Below, in pieces: positions 1 through 7,144 of a DNA stretch of 7,144 bases (within the stretch, counting starts at the first letter, position 1; the number at the start of each line of letters is the position of its first letter). The DNA is taken from positions 1-7,144 of the forward strand of contig JANQGC010000099.1 of assembly GCA_028277515.1 (NCBI GenBank), written 5' to 3'. This DNA comes from Anaerolineae bacterium (GTDB lineage: Bacteria; Chloroflexota; Anaerolineae; Promineifilales; Promineifilaceae). The notes under the pieces are model-generated. The model was not told where the DNA came from. It saw nothing but the letters and a program-made list of their open reading frames with translations, and made no database searches. A program made the position numbers and the translations under genes.

Positions 1-892
1 ATAGTCGCACCCCCTCCACAATCCGCTCCAATGCGGCCGTCGTTCTCGGTTCGTGAGTCAATATCAAGTGCTCCGCGCCGGCGGCTGCAAATTCATGGAA
101 AGATTGGGCCAGGGCTTCGGGCGATCCGCTGAGCGGATGTTCGAGGCGTGCATCTGCCGCTCCGAGATCGGGGAAGGTGCTCTCCACACCGACGGTCATG
201 CCCAGGCTGTTGATGTCGCGGCCAACATCGGCGCACGCTTTTTTCATCTTCTCTTTTGCTTCGGCCAAATCGGCCGCACGGCCGTACCAGGCGGTGTTCC
301 ATTGGTCGGCATATCGGGCGGTCAGGCGCATCATGCGCGGACCGAATGCGCCAACCATGATCGGGATACCCTGCGGCCGCGGGCCTAAGGGGGTGATCAG
401 ACAGTCTTGCACCCGGTAATGGTCACCATTGAAGGTGATTTGTTCGCCGCGCAGCAGAGGCTGAATGATCTGCAGCGCCTCCGCAAAGCGGCCAACTCTA
501 TTATCAAAAGGGAAGCCGAAGGCGTCGAACTCCGGTTTGTGCCAGCCCGCGCCCAGGCCAAGGATCAGGCGGCCGTCGCTGATCTCGTCCACGGTATGGG
601 CCATCTTGGCCATCAGCGCCGGATTGCGAAAGGGATTGCACAAGACCACGGTTCCCAACTCTGCACGTTGAGTCGCCTCGGCCAGAGCACAGAGCATGCT
701 CCAGCCCTCCCAGATACCTCCCGTTTTAAGTTCCCCTTCTTGCTCAAAGCGAAAGATGAGATGATCATAGATCCAGATTGAATCCAACCCGCCTTCATCG
801 GCCGTTTGTGCCAACTCACGTAAATGGGTATAGGAAGGAGCAAGGCCGGAATCTGTGTCTTCTGCATGATTAATGACAACGCCTATTTTCAT
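1..892 (-). CDS. LLM-class (luciferase-like) flavin/F420-dependent oxidoreductase, 3' end cut by window edge
   Basis: Translating the minus strand from the ATG at 892-890 gives 297 codons with no stop before the left edge. The family is usually about 290-330 residues, so probably only a few codons are missing. Seen: an N-terminal beta strand (MKIGVVIN, residues 1-8), the ADEGGLDSIWIYDH stretch (31-44) typical of luciferase-like TIM barrels, RAELGTVVL (76-84), NPFRNPALMAKMAHTVDEIS (87-106) and the family signature GRLILGLGAGWHKPEFDAFG (107-126), then RVGRFAEALQII (132-143). Family knowledge: these are cytoplasmic enzymes using FMN or coenzyme F420. Substrate and choice of cofactor cannot be read from the sequence. 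The start is supported by GAGGAA (905-900) 7 nt upstream. The gene is divergent from crtB, with its own candidate promoter at 926-953. No frameshift was found over the whole length. Confidence 0.9.
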   Translation of the reverse strand, partial: MKIGVVINHAEDTDSGLAPSYTHLRELAQTADEGGLDSIWIYDHLIFRFEQEGELKTGGIWEGWSMLCALAEATQRAELGTVVLCNPFRNPALMAKMAHTVDEISDGRLILGLGAGWHKPEFDAFGFPFDNRVGRFAEALQIIQPLLRGEQITFNGDHYRVQDCLITPLGPRPQGIPIMVGAFGPRMMRLTARYADQWNTAWYGRAADLAEAKEKMKKACADVGRDINSLGMTVGVESTFPDLGAADARLEHPLSGSPEALAQSFHEFAAAGAEHLILTHEPRTTAALERIVEGVRL

Positions 893-953: not shown

Positions 954-970
954 TTTTCAATAAACCAACA

Positions 971-1014
971 TATTAACAATTATTGTACAAATACTTGACA
1001 AAATATTTACATTC
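971..1014. promoter_or_regulatory. Four 11-bp direct repeats overlapping the crtB -35 box; candidate CarH/LitR-type operator
   Basis: Seen: TTAACA (973-978), TGTACA (984-989), TTGACA (995-1000) and TTTACA (1006-1011), each starting exactly 11 bp after the last. Written as 11-mers (971-981, 982-992, 993-1003, 1004-1014), the second and fourth match nnTnTACAnnn exactly, and the first and third differ at one base. From memory of the literature, that 11-bp pattern spanning the -35 box is how MerR-family, cobalamin-binding CarH/LitR light sensors recognise carotenoid promoters. Inference: crtB is repressed in the dark by a CarH-like protein encoded outside this window. An 11-bp palindrome, ACAATTATTGT (976-986), lies inside the array. 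The region is AT-rich, so some matches could be chance, but the exact phasing is not easily explained that way. Confidence 0.6.
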
Positions 1015-1023
1015 AGTTATTAT
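995..1023 (+). promoter_or_regulatory. Sigma70-type promoter of the crtB operon
   Basis: A perfect -35 box TTGACA (995-1000), a 17-bp spacer and TATTAT (1018-1023, five of six matching TATAAT) point rightward toward crtB. The start would fall near 1030, giving a leader of about 70 nt. This is the best promoter match in the window. A -35 this strong fits a promoter that needs active repression, and the -35 box is itself one of the 11-bp repeats. Confidence 0.75.
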
Positions 1024-1099: not shown

Positions 1100-2053
1100 A
1101 TGACCGTCATCATTAATGACACCTGGGAAAATACCCTCTTACGTATGGCCAATGAGGCGTGGCAATCGGTCCAGCCGGTCGTTGAAGTCAATCACAAAGA
1201 CAGTGATCTCCTGGCTGCCGCCTACGAGCATTGTAAAATCATGACGGCCGAACACAGCCGCTCCTTTTACATGGCTTCCGGTTTGATGCGTCCTGAAGTG
1301 CGCCGCGCTATCCGCGCTTTATACGCCTTCTGCCGTACCACGGATGATATTGTGGATGGTATGGGGTCGGACGCTTCGGCCGTCATGCGATTATGGCGCG
1401 AACGGGCGCTTAGCTGGCATCCACCGGAACATGAACTGGTGGCTGTGGCCTGGGCTGATGTGCGTGCACATTACGCCGTACCGCAACGGTATGCTGAGCA
1501 GTTAATCGACGGCGTTGCCCGCGATCTCTATCAGAATCGGTACGACAATTTTGCAGATTTATCAACGTATTGTTACGGGGTTGCTTCTACGGTAGGGCTG
1601 ATGAGTATGCATATTACCGGGTATAATAGTGAAGATGCGGTGCGATATGCTGTGAAGTTGGGTGTTGCTTTACAACTGACCAATGTACTGCGTGACGTCG
1701 CCGAGGATTGGCGGCGCAATCGTGTCTATCTGCCGCAGGATGAACTATGCCTCTTTGGGCTGAGCGATCAAGATATCGCTCACGGCGTTGAGACCGGTGA
1801 GTATGGCCGGCGCTGGCGCAATTTTATGCAGTTCCAGATCGCCCGCACACGCCAGATCTATGATGAGGCATGGCCTGGGATCCGGATGCTGCACCCTGAC
1901 GGCCGTTTCGCGATCGCTTCGGCGGCCGAATTTTACCGGGCAATTTTGCATGACATTGAAGCCCATGATTACGATGTGTTCAGCCGCCGTGCCTACGTCG
2001 GTAAGTGGGGTAAACTGCGCAGACTGCCCAAGATTTGGTGGCAAACGAAGTAA
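1100..2053 (+). CDS. crtB: Phytoene synthase (squalene/phytoene synthase family)
   Basis: 317 residues. The enzyme condenses two geranylgeranyl diphosphates to phytoene, the first committed step of C40 carotenoid synthesis, at the membrane surface. Seen: SRSFYMAS (53-60), the first Asp-rich motif DDIVD (82-86) after LYAFCRTT, LIDGVARDL (135-143), YCYGVASTVG (157-166), and the second Asp-rich region NVLRDVAEDWRRNRVYLPQDEL (195-216) with DVAED at 199-203. The two motifs bind Mg2+-diphosphate. Both are intact, so activity is expected. The ATG at 1100 is chosen because GGAG (1088-1091) lies 8 nt upstream; the in-frame TTG at 1079 lies inside the palindrome and has no such site. About 45 residues precede the core, slightly more than in many CrtB proteins. 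A squalene synthase or HpnC/HpnD-like role is possible but the motifs read more like CrtB. First gene of a likely three-gene operon. Confidence 0.88.
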   Translation: MTVIINDTWENTLLRMANEAWQSVQPVVEVNHKDSDLLAAAYEHCKIMTAEHSRSFYMASGLMRPEVRRAIRALYAFCRTTDDIVDGMGSDASAVMRLWRERALSWHPPEHELVAVAWADVRAHYAVPQRYAEQLIDGVARDLYQNRYDNFADLSTYCYGVASTVGLMSMHITGYNSEDAVRYAVKLGVALQLTNVLRDVAEDWRRNRVYLPQDELCLFGLSDQDIAHGVETGEYGRRWRNFMQFQIARTRQIYDEAWPGIRMLHPDGRFAIASAAEFYRAILHDIEAHDYDVFSRRAYVGKWGKLRRLPKIWWQTK

Positions 2054-2077: not shown

Positions 2078-2617
2078 ATGGGCATTGTGTACGCTGTCAG
2101 TAAAAGTCAAAAACACGAATTTTCAAAGCAAACCGCCGGATCTGTTTTCCTGGTTGAAGGGGAAGGTGTGGAAGGAGATGCCCATCGCGGGGTCACTGTT
2201 AAGCACCGTTCGCGGGTTCGTCAAGATCCTACCCAGCCAAATTTAAGACAGGTGCATTTGATTCACCTGGAGTTGATTAAAGATTTGCAAGAACAGGGGT
2301 TTGCCGTCACACCGGGAGCGATGGGTGAAAATATTACCACGGCCGAAATCGATCTGTTGGCTTTGCCCACGGAAACGGTCTTACATCTTGGCCCACACGC
2401 TGTGATCCAGGTGACCGGGCTGCGCAATCCATGTGTGCAGTTGGATGGTTTCCAGCAAGGTTTGATGTCGGCCGTCCTGGACCGGGATGAAAAAGGAAAT
2501 CTGATCCGTAAGGCCGGCATTATGGCCATTGTGCTACGAAGCGGAATAGTCAGGCAGGGCGATCGTATTACGGTACAGCTTCCACCGCAGCCACACCGGC
2601 CGTTGGAACCCGTATGA
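2078..2617 (+). CDS. MOSC-domain protein
   Basis: 179 residues, essentially a single MOSC domain, the fold named after the C-terminal domain of molybdenum-cofactor sulfurase. Seen: GEGVEGDAHRG (28-38), RQVHLI (57-62), PGAMGENITT (79-88), TGLRNPC (113-119) with the conserved Cys119 of the family, and the closing strand GDRITVQ (161-167). Family knowledge: MOSC proteins carry sulfur on this cysteine or act with molybdenum cofactor in reductive detoxification (YiiM, YcbX, mARC). Stand-alone small MOSC proteins often have no assigned substrate, and none can be assigned here. The start ATG at 2078 has AGAGGA (2067-2072) 5 nt upstream. It begins 24 bp after crtB and overlaps the hydrolase start by 4 bp (ATGA), implying co-transcription. 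No partner molybdoenzyme or ferredoxin gene is present. Confidence 0.85.
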   Translation: MGIVYAVSKSQKHEFSKQTAGSVFLVEGEGVEGDAHRGVTVKHRSRVRQDPTQPNLRQVHLIHLELIKDLQEQGFAVTPGAMGENITTAEIDLLALPTETVLHLGPHAVIQVTGLRNPCVQLDGFQQGLMSAVLDRDEKGNLIRKAGIMAIVLRSGIVRQGDRITVQLPPQPHRPLEPV

Positions 2618-3519
2618 AAACAGTAACTATTGAACGGGTTTTAAAAGATACACGAGAAATTGAAGTAGCAACCGGCCGTTCCCTCGCATATCTCGATCTG
2701 GGGCAACCGAACGGCCTTCCAATCTTCTTTTTTCACGGCCTACCCGGCAGCCGGATCGAGGCCATCGCCCTGCATGAAAGCGCAAAAACACATGGCTTTC
2801 GCATCCTCGCCCCAGACCGGCCCGGATTCGGCGAATCAGATCCGCAGACCAGATATCGTTTTCTCGATTGGCCTTCTGAAATAGTGACTATGGCAGACAA
2901 TTTGGGACTGGACACCTTCGGGGTGATCGGTGTTTCCGGTGGCGGGCCATTCGCCCTGGCCTGCGCACACGCCATCCCAGAAAGACTTGAAATTGTGCTC
3001 GATATCGGTGGCTCTGCGCCTAAATGGACGGATGCCGCCTCTCGCCAGGAGCTGAGCAGAGTAGACCGGATCTTTTCAACGTTGGGCAGCTACCTGCCGG
3101 CACTCTTTCTGCGCCCGCCTTTCGCTTACATGGCCTACCGCCTTCATCGTATCGAAAATGGTCCCCAATTCGCTAAACTATTTGGCGATGCCATTTCTGA
3201 ACCGGATCGAAAGCTAATTGAGCAAGATTGGGTCGGCCGCCTGTTGATCCTTGACGCAAGAGAATCTTTCCGGCAGGGTACGAAAGCCGTTGCCGAAGAA
3301 TCAATTTTAAATTATAAATCGTGGGGTTTCGCGTTGAGCGAGATCAGTATGCCGGTCCACTTATTCCACGGTACGGAAGATAAATTGGTCCCTTTCTCCT
3401 TTGGGGAATTCAAAGCCCGAAGCATCCCGCGATCTGTATTCAACCCAATCAAAGGGCAGGGGCATTTTTATTTGCTGTTGAATAGCAACCTATTGTTTGA
3501 TTACATCACTGGCCACTGA
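2614..3519 (+). CDS. Alpha/beta-fold hydrolase
   Basis: 301 residues. Seen: the oxyanion-hole HGLPGSR motif (41-47), APDRPGFGESD (66-76), the nucleophile elbow GVSGGG (106-111) with Ser108, HGTEDKLVP (252-260) placing the acid at Asp256, and GQGHF (281-285) with His284. The Ser-Asp-His triad is complete, with a lid region at roughly 140-240. Family knowledge: alpha/beta hydrolases cleave esters, amides or related bonds; no substrate can be assigned. The ATG overlaps the MOSC stop by 4 bp with only a weak ribosome binding site, so translation is probably coupled to the upstream gene. It closes the crtB-MOSC-hydrolase unit, hinting at an accessory or lipid role, but that is only context. Its last 30 bp overlap the 3' end of rpe on the other strand. 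Confidence 0.87.
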   Translation: MKTVTIERVLKDTREIEVATGRSLAYLDLGQPNGLPIFFFHGLPGSRIEAIALHESAKTHGFRILAPDRPGFGESDPQTRYRFLDWPSEIVTMADNLGLDTFGVIGVSGGGPFALACAHAIPERLEIVLDIGGSAPKWTDAASRQELSRVDRIFSTLGSYLPALFLRPPFAYMAYRLHRIENGPQFAKLFGDAISEPDRKLIEQDWVGRLLILDARESFRQGTKAVAEESILNYKSWGFALSEISMPVHLFHGTEDKLVPFSFGEFKARSIPRSVFNPIKGQGHFYLLLNSNLLFDYITGH

Positions 3520-4255: not shown

Positions 4256-4552
4256 CTAGGGCAGCGGATAACAATTACCGCTGCCGAAAATGATCGAATG
4301 ATCGGCATTGGCTACGCGAGCACACATTGAGCTTGCGGCAGCCGGCCGGTCACTCTCACTATAGCCTCGGAACGGCCGCGGCCCGCCATACAAGATCCAG
4401 GGACCGCTGCCCGGTGAGCCGGCGTTGGCCTCGGACACGGTGTCGAAGTAAAAGTGCACATGCATGCCCGGCAGCGTCTCCGTGTAGCCAAAGGTTTCGT
4501 AATTAACAACATACGTGCCGCCATCCAGCGTGATGCCGTTGATGCGCACCGA
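4256..4552 (-). repeat. C-terminal HVHF domain, copy in the kinase
   Basis: Residues 694-791 of the kinase align without gaps over 98 positions to the end of the upstream gene (6754-7050), with about 60 identities by eye. Shared landmarks are HVHF (724-727), DTVS, ANAG, PGSGPW (740-745), LYGG, SSMC (767-770), VAN, DHSII, GNC (785-787) and a final PLP at the very C-terminus. Two cysteines (770 and 787) are kept in both copies and could form a disulfide outside the cell. I do not recognise the family. Confidence 0.85.
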
Positions 4553-6631
4553 CAATTCCTGCTCGACCGGCTCATCGGTGGCCGTTGGCTCAGGTGGTGT
4601 CGTCGGGGTTGGCGGGACATCGGTCGGCTCATCCGTTGGTAGTGCTGTGGGTTGCGGCTCCGGAATGGCCAACGGGTCTAAACAACCATCGCATGCTTCG
4701 TCCCACAGGATGAAACTTCCAGAGCGGCGATTGATATCCATTTCTTGCACCACTTCTCCGCTATCAAGATTAATGATGACTTCCTGCCCGGGGGGAAGGG
4801 GTTGGCGCTCATCCAGGAAGCAGTCTCCGGCAAAACAAGAGACTCGCGCGCCCTCATTTGTGACTGAAACAGACATCACCCCTTGATCGGCCGTTTGCAG
4901 GAGGCGTCGCGAAAGTGAGCCTCTCCTGGCGGCGACACTGCTATCCTGCAGCGTGCCCAGCACATTGCCATCCCGGTCGGTAATCGTCAAAGCGTTCCCA
5001 GTTATAGGTTGGCGCAGCAGCATGTTGCCATCAAACAGGCGGAAGAGCGTTTCCTGGGTCGGGTCCTGGGGATCGCTGGCGATATTTTCAACCATAGCGT
5101 CGCTGAGGCCGGCAATTTGAATGATGCTCTCATCATCAAGCGTAAAGGTGACCTGGCTGTTGGCGTCCGTTACCAGTTGTGTGCCGCTGCTGATAATGGA
5201 ATTTTCATCGACAGGACTTTGCTGGCCATCGGTGTCATAAAGAATGACCGTACCTTCTACTGATTGCACGCTGCCTTGCGGACCTTCCGGCAGGGGTTCA
5301 ACCGTTGCCGTGGCCGGTTCTTCTGTCGGCTCCTCCGTGGGTGCCGGTTCATCTGTTGCCGCCGGTTCATCTGTCGCGGCGGCTTCCTCTGTTGGCGCTT
5401 CCGTGGCAATGACAACCGGTGTGGTTTCTGGTGTTAGCTCTCCGGCAATTTCCGAACCATCGCCCCCTCCGGAATCTCGCAGGAAAATAGCCCAAATGCC
5501 CAGGGCCAGCAGTAGAACGACAGCCACCCCGCCGGCAACATAGAGCCAGGCTGGCCGATCCCCGGAACTCCCGGCAGCCGGCGCTGTTGAGGCCGGTTGC
5601 GAAGGAGGTGGGGGTGGGGGAGCGGTTGTTGGACCGGTGTCGCTGACGACGGCCCGGGCAGCGCCACTGTCGGAACCTGTGGCAGCAGCAGCGGCACCGG
5701 CAGCAGCCGCACTTTCTAGCACCGTCGCCCCTGGGTCAGAGACCGGTTTCGGCCCGGTTTCCATGATTGTAACCCCGGCAGTTGGCGCGTCTGACCGGTA
5801 ATTGCGTAAGGCATGGGCGAATGCGCCGGCCGTTTCATAGCGATCCGTGTGATTCTTGGCCAGGGATTTATTGACGATATTGACCAGTTCCGCGGGCATG
5901 TCCGAGCGTAAATCGCGCAGATCGGGTACCGGATCGGTCATGTGCATCATCATGAGGGTCATGGCCGAGTCTGATTCAAACGGTGGCCGGCCGCCCAGCA
6001 TTTCAAACAGGGTGACACCAAGGGAATATATATCGGTGCGTGGGTCGATGCGTTCCCCTTTAATTTGTTCAGGGGACATGTAACGGGCGGTGCCCAGGAC
6101 GGCTCCCGTAGCGGTATGCTGCGTGCCACCCATGATCTTGGCAATACCGAAATCGGTTATGATCGGCTGGCCAAGAACGTTTAAGATGATATTGGCCGGT
6201 TTGATGTCGCGGTGAATGAGACCCTTGACGTGAGCATATTGCAGGCCGTCGGCCGATTTAGCGGCGATATCCACCGCTTCGGCCACATCCATATTTCTGC
6301 CCGCTTTTTGCATCCGTTTCAAGCGGGCCTGGATCGTTTCCCCGGGCACGAACTCGAACACAATGAAATAGGTATCATCGTCGTTGTTAAAGTCATACAC
6401 CTGGATCAAATTGGGATGCCGTAGTTGAGCGACGGCTGCTGCTTCTTCTTCAAAGCGGCGCACAAACTCTTCATTGTTGGAGAGATGGGAATGAATCAGC
6501 TTGACGGCGACGACACGTCGCAAATTGGGATCGTTGGCTTTGTAGACGGCCGACATTCCACCTTGCCCCAGTAATTCCTGAATTTCATACCGGCCGCCCA
6601 ATGTTTGGCCGATCCAACTCGCTTTTGACAT
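4256..6631 (-). CDS. Receptor-like transmembrane Ser/Thr protein kinase with FecR-like and C-terminal HVHF domains
   Basis: 791 residues. The N-terminal PknB-like kinase (about 15-280) has the glycine loop GQGGMSAVY (22-30), VAVK with Lys44, HRDIKPANI (140-148) with catalytic Asp142, DFG (160-162), a Thr-rich activation loop (170-181) and SPE (186-188), so it should be active. A Pro/Ala-rich juxtamembrane stretch (about 285-360) precedes one membrane helix (about 362-384), putting the rest outside the cell. The external part has a Thr/Glu/Pro linker (about 395-450), a FecR-like beta-rich region (about 452-625), Cys pairs at 599/604 and 647/650, a second Pro/Thr linker (655-690) and a C-terminal domain (694-791) not recognised. 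No PASTA repeats. The start ATG has GGAG 7 nt upstream. Inference: the external domains sense an envelope or surface signal. The FecR assignment is by pattern and moderate; the kinase assignment is secure. Confidence 0.93.
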   Translation of the reverse strand: MSKASWIGQTLGGRYEIQELLGQGGMSAVYKANDPNLRRVVAVKLIHSHLSNNEEFVRRFEEEAAAVAQLRHPNLIQVYDFNNDDDTYFIVFEFVPGETIQARLKRMQKAGRNMDVAEAVDIAAKSADGLQYAHVKGLIHRDIKPANIILNVLGQPIITDFGIAKIMGGTQHTATGAVLGTARYMSPEQIKGERIDPRTDIYSLGVTLFEMLGGRPPFESDSAMTLMMMHMTDPVPDLRDLRSDMPAELVNIVNKSLAKNHTDRYETAGAFAHALRNYRSDAPTAGVTIMETGPKPVSDPGATVLESAAAAGAAAAATGSDSGAARAVVSDTGPTTAPPPPPPSQPASTAPAAGSSGDRPAWLYVAGGVAVVLLLALGIWAIFLRDSGGGDGSEIAGELTPETTPVVIATEAPTEEAAATDEPAATDEPAPTEEPTEEPATATVEPLPEGPQGSVQSVEGTVILYDTDGQQSPVDENSIISSGTQLVTDANSQVTFTLDDESIIQIAGLSDAMVENIASDPQDPTQETLFRLFDGNMLLRQPITGNALTITDRDGNVLGTLQDSSVAARRGSLSRRLLQTADQGVMSVSVTNEGARVSCFAGDCFLDERQPLPPGQEVIINLDSGEVVQEMDINRRSGSFILWDEACDGCLDPLAIPEPQPTALPTDEPTDVPPTPTTPPEPTATDEPVEQELSVRINGITLDGGTYVVNYETFGYTETLPGMHVHFYFDTVSEANAGSPGSGPWILYGGPRPFRGYSESDRPAAASSMCARVANADHSIIFGSGNCYPLP
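4260..4285 (-). other. GC-rich hairpin formed by the last codons of the kinase gene
   Basis: GGCAGCGG (4260-4267) pairs with CCGCTGCC (4278-4285), eight perfect base pairs around a 10-nt loop. Three more inner pairs (TAA 4269-4271 with TTA 4275-4277) are possible if A4268 bulges. It ends 1 nt before the stop codon and lies 16 bp upstream of the terminator hairpin. It has no T-run of its own. It could stabilise the mRNA 3' end. The same amino acids in the paralogous gene (6754-6780) do not form this stem, so it is not forced by the protein. Confidence 0.45.
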
Positions 6632-6753: not shown

Positions 6754-7050
6754 CTATGGCAGTGGGAAGCAATTGCCCGTTCCGGGAATGATCGAATGAT
6801 CTTCATTGGCCACCAGGATACACATGGATGATGGCTCGAGGTACTTATCGGATTCTGCATATTCCGTGAAGGGTGAAGATCCGCCATACAGCTTCCAGGG
6901 ACCGCTGCCGGGCATGCCGGCATTAGCCTGGGATACGGTATCAAAAAAGAAATGAACATGGCGTCCGGGAACCTGAGCCGTGAAACCGCTGGTGACGAAA
7001 TCGACGTAATAACGGCCGTCTACCAACGTGATATTGGTGATACTCGTCGA
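6754..7050 (-). repeat. C-terminal HVHF domain, copy in the upstream gene
   Basis: This is the partner copy of 4256-4552. Protein identity is about 60% and the DNA has diverged clearly, so the duplication is not recent. The two His of HVHF, the Asp of FDT, the Trp of GSGPW, the His of DHSII and both Cys are unchanged, marking the likely structural or ligand-binding core. Confidence 0.85.
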
Positions 7051-7144
7051 ATAAGAGGGTTGTTCCGGCGTAGGGCTGGCTTCGTCTTCCGGATCGGGCG
7101 TGCCTTCAACTGTCGCCTCTGGTGTGCCATCGACCGTCGCTTCC
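6754..7144 (-). CDS. 3' end of a gene carrying the same C-terminal HVHF domain (5' part outside window)
   Basis: The minus-strand frame is open from base 7143 to the TAG at 6756-6754, 130 codons, and continues beyond the right edge. It begins with an acidic Thr/Pro linker (EATVDGTPEATVEGTP and onward, about 30 residues), the kind of spacer also found in the kinase, then the roughly 98-residue domain ending GNCFPLP. The TTG at 7026 should not be read as the gene start because the frame and the linker continue upstream of it. The gene lies 122 bp upstream of the kinase in the same direction. Inference: it is a paralogous surface protein, possibly another receptor kinase, but nothing in the visible part proves a kinase domain. 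Confidence 0.85.
   Translation of the reverse strand, partial: EATVDGTPEATVEGTPDPEDEASPTPEQPSYSTSITNITLVDGRYYVDFVTSGFTAQVPGRHVHFFFDTVSQANAGMPGSGPWKLYGGSSPFTEYAESDKYLEPSSMCILVANEDHSIIPGTGNCFPLP

Follow-up and report, generated by a model that had tools for sequence, protein, structure and literature searches.

Known CarH/LitR operators and the locus under study

The CarH repeat is given as nnnnTnnACAn in the accessible sections of one report (PMC9304148) and in a stricter form, nAnnTnnACAn, in those of another (PMC8156234). According to the former sections, the operator of Bacillus megaterium CarHBm consists of four tandem 11-bp repeats, or of three repeats and a pseudorepeat, and overlaps its promoter, and the -35 box lies inside a repeat in the operators of Thermus and the myxobacteria. 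In the accessible text of PMC6210107, Herpetosiphon llansteffanense, which like our organism belongs to the Chloroflexota, is described as having a CarH gene that adjoins the phytoene synthase gene, and the pigment of a Herpetosiphon with this arrangement as constitutive; that text describes no operator.

In the present study, we analysed a 7,144-nucleotide stretch of DNA from an Anaerolineae bacterium (the whole stretch is called the window below) and compared it with these systems. Like the CarHBm operator, the window carried four tandem nnnnTnnACAn repeats over a promoter, which is a predicted one here; it differed in coming from another phylum and in that the regulators of its relatives add an extra C-terminal domain. 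The Thermus thermophilus CarHTt operator (PDB 5c8e) likewise has tandem 11-bp repeats with the -35 box inside one of them, but there are three repeats in Thermus and four in the window, and TtCarH ends after its B12 domain, whereas the regulator of the Anaerolineae relatives does not. The Myxococcales Pcrt operator shares the sense-strand repeats and a TTGACA -35 box within a repeat at a carotenogenic promoter (predicted in the window); in Myxococcales, however, the repeats are frequently imperfect and carH often belongs to the crt operon or lies close to it, whereas 4/4 repeats were perfect in the window and crtB had no adjacent carH. The initial annotation of this DNA had remarked that the layout mirrors CarH operators and that four repeats would be one more than in Thermus. 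The likeness held, since the window fits the four-repeat form of Bacillus megaterium with the -35 box in a repeat as in Thermus, and the count is no anomaly, as Bacillus megaterium also has four. The operator and its control logic are already known; the window adds a candidate member from a little-studied group.

A phased repeat array overlaps the predicted crtB promoter

The array was located in an intergenic gap of 207 bp (32% GC) between a divergent LLM oxidoreductase gene and crtB. Its features, with the evidence for each, were as follows:

969..1012, + strand: candidate CarH-type operator, four tandem 11-bp direct repeats nnnnTnnACAn (sequence, shuffles, conservation in relatives)
973..978, + strand: repeat 1, core TTAACA (sequence, shuffles)
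984..989, + strand: repeat 2, core TGTACA (sequence, shuffles)
995..1000, + strand: repeat 3, core TTGACA, doubling as the predicted -35 box (shuffles, promoter scan)
1006..1011, + strand: repeat 4, core TTTACA, inside the -35/-10 spacer (sequence, shuffles)
1018..1023, + strand: predicted -10 box TATTAT, with its end 76 bp ahead of the crtB start (promoter scan)

The 11-bp units occupied 969-979, 980-990, 991-1001 and 1002-1012, and successive cores followed in steps of 11, 11 and 11 bp, all on the + strand. The initial annotation had described four TTnACA-like elements exactly 11 bp apart, two of them fitting TnTACA exactly and two missing it by one base; our recount, with cores at 973, 984, 995 and 1006, agreed. 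The array thus had 2 mismatches to TNTACA and none (0) to TNNACA. A CarH operator is expected to hold at least three tandem 11-bp TnnACA repeats, and 4/4 window repeats fitted this published core (nnnnTnnACAn), while the extra A of the stricter form nAnnTnnACAn was present in 2/4.

To assess chance occurrence, we compared the array with 20,000 dinucleotide-preserving shuffles of positions 906-1100. None (0/20,000) gave four elements at 11-bp steps with at most 2 mismatches to TNTACA, and the array was likewise never equalled when periods of 10-12 on either strand were allowed. Counted singly over the window, TnTACA words were not enriched (7 found, 6.42 expected), so that the unusual feature is the phasing. 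The GC content over 971-1014 was 18%.

The promoter scan predicted a sigma-A-type promoter, TTGACA-17-TATTAT, with 11/12 consensus bases. Shuffles of the region contained a mean of 1.2 promoter-like sites, and the promoter match alone therefore proves little. Operator and promoter are expected to overlap in CarH systems, and here repeat 3 coincided with the predicted -35 box; the earlier identification of the third element as the TTGACA -35 box of a crtB promoter was thus upheld for a predicted promoter, with TATTAT at a spacer of 17. Downstream, in the presumed crtB leader, we observed an imperfect inverted repeat (1030-1041/1069-1080, 92% complementary). A leader hairpin formed by it was rejected, as RNA folding was no better than in shuffles (z 0.17).

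Genes of the window

The genes around the array were annotated with Pfam and NCBIfam models:

2..892, - strand: divergent LLM-class oxidoreductase gene, running off the window (PF00296; NCBIfam F420 LLM subfamilies)
1100..2053, + strand: crtB, phytoene synthase family (SQS_PSY), the presumed controlled gene (Pfam PF00494, 1.1e-74)
2078..2617, + strand: MOSC-domain protein gene, 24 bp after crtB (PF03473)
2614..3519, + strand: alpha/beta hydrolase gene, its start overlapping the stop of the MOSC gene (PF00561)

The best NCBIfam model for the crtB product was a CrtB, with 251 bits under a cut-off of 550, and the second was HpnD, with 217 bits and a cut-off of 279. In several relatives, crtI was found near the crtB orthologues. 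The MOSC gene probably belongs to the crtB operon, which presupposes co-transcription, although it was not found beside crtB in the relatives' loci compared; the alpha/beta hydrolase gene would be a further member. The LLM oxidoreductase gene stands where many relatives have a divergent carH. At the other end of the window, the C-terminal part of a Ser/Thr kinase gene (4256-6631, - strand) was closely similar to the end of a truncated ORF (6754-7143, - strand), perhaps the trace of a tandem duplication, judging by sequence likeness.

Apart from P0001, which is the window CrtB itself, the nearest proteins to it were P0002 (82% identical) and others at 71-74%, and one relative at 72%, P0010, was named from Candidatus Promineifilaceae. 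The nearest CrtB proteins in the orders of genomes G305 and G104 were 64% and 62% identical. In the order of G115, the nearest CrtB was 62% identical and a ribulose-phosphate epimerase was 74% identical to that of the window, and the sequence likeness suggests that the window lineage may belong to this order.

CarH-like regulators in Anaerolineae relatives

We searched for the regulator in a set of 396 genomes of the class, centred on the Anaerolineae genome G001 (the genome of contig L001). A CrtB match was found in 164/396 genomes, the best being 64% identical to the window, and the regulator search started from domain PF02607 in the 30 genomes with the best CrtB. The search retrieved CarH-like proteins with MerR_1, B12-binding_2 and B12-binding domains, that is, the MerR HTH and B12 architecture that defines class I CarH/LitR. 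All three domains were over the cut-off in the protein of L063, and B12-binding was below its cut-off in that of L073 (28.7 vs 32.1). The nearest solved sequence was T. thermophilus CarH/LitR. With the L063 protein as query, 194/396 genomes gave a match at 1e-10; we classed homologues with a best E of at most 1.5e-93 as strong (100/396 genomes) and the remaining 94 as weak.

The residues of class I repressors, W-x9-EH and the lower-axial His, were retained in the relatives' regulator: among the 120 best-listed CarH relatives, GxxWx9EH was kept in 120/120 and the presumed B12-ligating (lower-axial) His in 118/120. The Gly of GxxH was kept in 10/120 of the same best-listed proteins and missing in at least 108/120. 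P0195, a CarH-like protein named from Candidatus Promineifilaceae, had the NCBIfam CarH equivalog NF052513 as its best family but did not reach the cut-off (151.4 bits vs 400), and it is therefore a CarH relative, not the equivalog.

The position of carH was compared in the 71 genomes where CarH was strong and crtB readable. In at least 43 of them, carH lay divergently, no more than 2.5 kb upstream of crtB, and in 1 it preceded crtB with the same orientation. In 27/71 it was not linked to crtB in the assembly, a figure that is an upper bound because the assemblies are drafts; the divergent carH of G337, for example, was cut by a contig end (L102). The window resembles the carH-unlinked regions, because its divergent neighbour is another gene. 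The earlier proposal that the regulator is encoded elsewhere fits both the LLM oxidoreductase neighbour and the unlinked carH of up to 27/71 relatives. In G305 (L063, about 4306-4500), a crtI-like gene was observed about 1.5 kb from carH, which was not beside crtB.

CarH-bearing relatives keep the 11-bp phasing ahead of crtB

To evaluate conservation, we examined 111 regions from 110/164 genomes, each reaching as far as 350 bp ahead of crtB (less in three cases), and left out weaker or incomplete crtB matches. A site was scored where four TNNACA elements had at most 4/16 mismatches, or three at most 2/12, on either strand. A period-11 site was found in 50/72 regions with a strong CarH, 6/19 with a weak one and 1/20 with none (Fisher, strong CarH vs all others, 3.1e-7, in a test that ignores the kinship of the genomes). 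These results indicated that conservation of the site at orthologous promoters goes along with carH, as expected of a CarH operator. By the same criterion, 22/72 strong-CarH regions had no period-11 site. Among the 39 regions that had no strong CarH, period 11 and period 9 gave forward sites equally often, in 6 each. In the order of G115, where 39 genomes gave a match, the site was present at 9/9 newly retrieved crtB loci, two of which (L241, L246) were from genomes already within the 111. No 11-bp site was found in L001, the closest GTDB contig by CrtB in one collection scan (53% identical). The initial annotation had let its reading depend on conservation of the 11-bp phasing upstream of crtB orthologues; the phasing was conserved in the CarH-bearing relatives, which are not close ones (CrtB at most 64% identical).

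Based on the repeats and this conservation, we consider that positions 969-1012 are the operator of a CarH/LitR-type repressor encoded elsewhere in a Promineifilaceae-like genome, with a probability of roughly three in four. The earlier CarH/LitR reading is thereby strengthened through the relatives, and from them we infer binding, B12 and light dependence, and a regulator in the window's own genome. The 22/72 strong-CarH regions that had no site, the sub-cut-off CarH score and missing GxxH Gly of the relatives' proteins, and the constitutive pigment of the Herpetosiphon weigh against the reading. Such a repressor would combine a MerR DNA-binding domain with adenosylcobalamin-binding domains. 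In the dark, its B12-loaded oligomer would sit on the four head-to-tail repeats, hiding the -35 box together with most of the spacer and denying RNA polymerase access to the crtB promoter. In the light, the cobalt-carbon bond would break and the oligomer would fall apart; after release, crtB would be transcribed, probably together with the MOSC and hydrolase genes. As far as can be read from the DNA, the pigment gene crtB is thus probably switched on by light.

The same site might instead be read by a B12-independent LitR- or CarA-like MerR protein (class II-V LitR or CarA), with light or another signal arriving through a partner protein. Myxobacterial CarA and CarH have common operators in the accessible sections of PMC9304148, and class II LitR is described in those of PMC9758184 as binding TnTACA-type sites and acting through a LOV protein. 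Against this, the MerR relatives that we found, in a search for B12-domain MerR proteins only, keep both B12 domains, the W, the EH and the presumed ligating His, and it is with these B12-domain relatives that site presence tracks in the counts above. We regard this explanation as unlikely.

It is also improbable, in our estimate, that the operator is real but light control or the repressor has been lost, leaving crtB constitutive. The absence of carH beside crtB in the window and the constitutive pigment of the Herpetosiphon mentioned above would suit such a loss. However, all four window repeats were intact: four perfect repeats occurred in none of the 111 relatives' crtB regions, and the window, at 0/16 mismatches, had fewer than any of them (next best 1/16). 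Moreover, the forward site was still kept in 17 of the 27 carH-unlinked regions at period 11, vs 1-4 at other periods. In the 19 unlinked regions with a promoter-like match, the commonest offsets of the elements from the -35 box were -11, -22 and +11 (10, 7 and 6 regions), with a mean count of 1.1 at the remaining offsets.

That an AT-rich promoter shows phased TnnACA words by chance is very unlikely. Single TnTACA words were not enriched, AT-rich sequence favours them, and perfect four-repeat arrays alone were not above control in the relatives. Nevertheless, the shuffles never equalled the window array, and the relatives showed a peak at period 11: other periods from 7 to 16 gave sites in 3-17 of the 72 strong-CarH regions (the 17 at period 9), and dinucleotide shuffles of these regions in 1-6 (12 rounds).

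The operator-promoter layout recurs at other genes

We searched the 396 genomes for the layout TNNACA-N5-TNNACA-N5-TTGACA-N17-TANNNT, a pattern present in the window at 973-1023. The layout was found at 19 places in 13/396 genomes and at 0 in a reversed control, which matches composition but not promoter-likeness. The identities of the neighbouring genes, which were assigned by Pfam for ten proteins and by sequence likeness for the other photolyase, TspO and ABC names, are evidence independent of this control. Four places were before crtB (G204, G235, G255, G364), and three had a MerR-B12 gene downstream (G326, G208 and, by coordinates, G102); in G356 a MerR-B12 gene was divergent and a DegV gene lay downstream. 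In G347, G364, G235 and G255, the layout stood between a DNA photolyase gene and a divergent TspO/MBR-type gene. The remaining places were at genes for ABC ATPases (3), GTP cyclohydrolase I (folE, 1), a sigma-70 factor (1) and a fasciclin protein (1), with 1 unclear. Three site types are common to G235, G255 and G364, which seem to be closely related genomes, and the number of independent cases is correspondingly lower. Among the sites outside crtB and MerR-B12 genes were:

L255, L261, L263, L265, about 1501-1551, in site-forward orientation: photolyase/TspO sites
L247, L249, L254, L256-L258: folE, sigma-70, fasciclin and ABC ATPase sites

The repeats could alternatively bind a regulator of another kind that also uses 11-bp direct repeats, such as an activator placed on the -35 box, and a position on and upstream of -35 might suit an activator too. 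However, the layout lies immediately ahead of MerR-B12 genes in G326, G208 and G102, as is expected of an autoregulated CarH, and we consider this explanation extremely improbable.

For the CarH-type reading, the sites at photolyase/TspO genes suggest, from the motif and its gene context, a wider light regulon. In the accessible text of PMC9758184, photolyase and folE are among the light-inducible LitR-dependent genes of Pseudomonas. The perfect four-repeat pattern without a promoter was rejected as a genome-wide signature, as it occurred at 11 places in 7 genomes vs 12 places in 4 in the reversed control (396 relatives); several of its matches look like simple tandem repeats. In G350 (L115/L252, about 1501-1551), four perfect repeats combined with -35 and -10 boxes were observed before no clear gene, and they may belong to an untranslated RNA or have arisen by chance.

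The relatives' regulators carry an extra domain predicted to be globin-like

The Anaerolineae CarH relatives (L063:1409-2752, - strand; P0121-P0240) had an extra C-terminal domain. In the one structural model made, that of P0195, this domain was predicted to fold like the globin domain of photocobilins. The regulator would thus have the photocobilin order, a B12 domain followed by a five-helix globin domain. The solved photocobilins SasPcob (8j2w, free-standing) and AbPcob (8j2y, with a GGDEF domain) are without a MerR domain; unlike them, the relatives' regulator has a MerR DNA-binding domain ahead, and the bilin-anchoring Asp270 is not evident. By residue counting on a non-significant alignment stretch (score -3.1), a Trp (W392) was found at the inferred SasPcob Trp296 position in 54/54 proteins, and by the same counting on that stretch (score -3.1) the inferred Asp270 position fell at A366/N367. 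Heme oxygenase PF01126, a possible biliverdin source and the only family searched for, was found in 0/12 genomes.

It is conceivable, though we consider it doubtful, that a fusion of a MerR protein and a photocobilin-like sensor serves as the repressor, a two-chromophore factor that could release a light-protection regulon across many Anaerolineae. Our literature search found no publication joining MerR, B12-binding, a globin domain and light. We do not claim the MerR-B12-globin architecture as new, as a paper on the photoglobin family may already list it.

Implications for light control in the Anaerolineae

By in silico evidence, the present reading adds a large class of Chloroflexota, most of it uncultured, to the groups in which light controls carotenoid synthesis through CarH-type regulators. 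It can be tested with a defined DNA of 44 bp and with named proteins (P0195 and its kin), and from the promoter pattern a wider light regulon is predicted. If the two-chromophore proposal were true, the regulon would comprise crtB, the photolyase/TspO genes, folE, the regulator's own gene and perhaps a sigma factor, and would respond to green and possibly red light. If the globin domain binds a bilin, the regulator would respond, as a natural transcription factor, to a broader range of colours than CarH does, and this would be of interest for photobiology and optogenetics.
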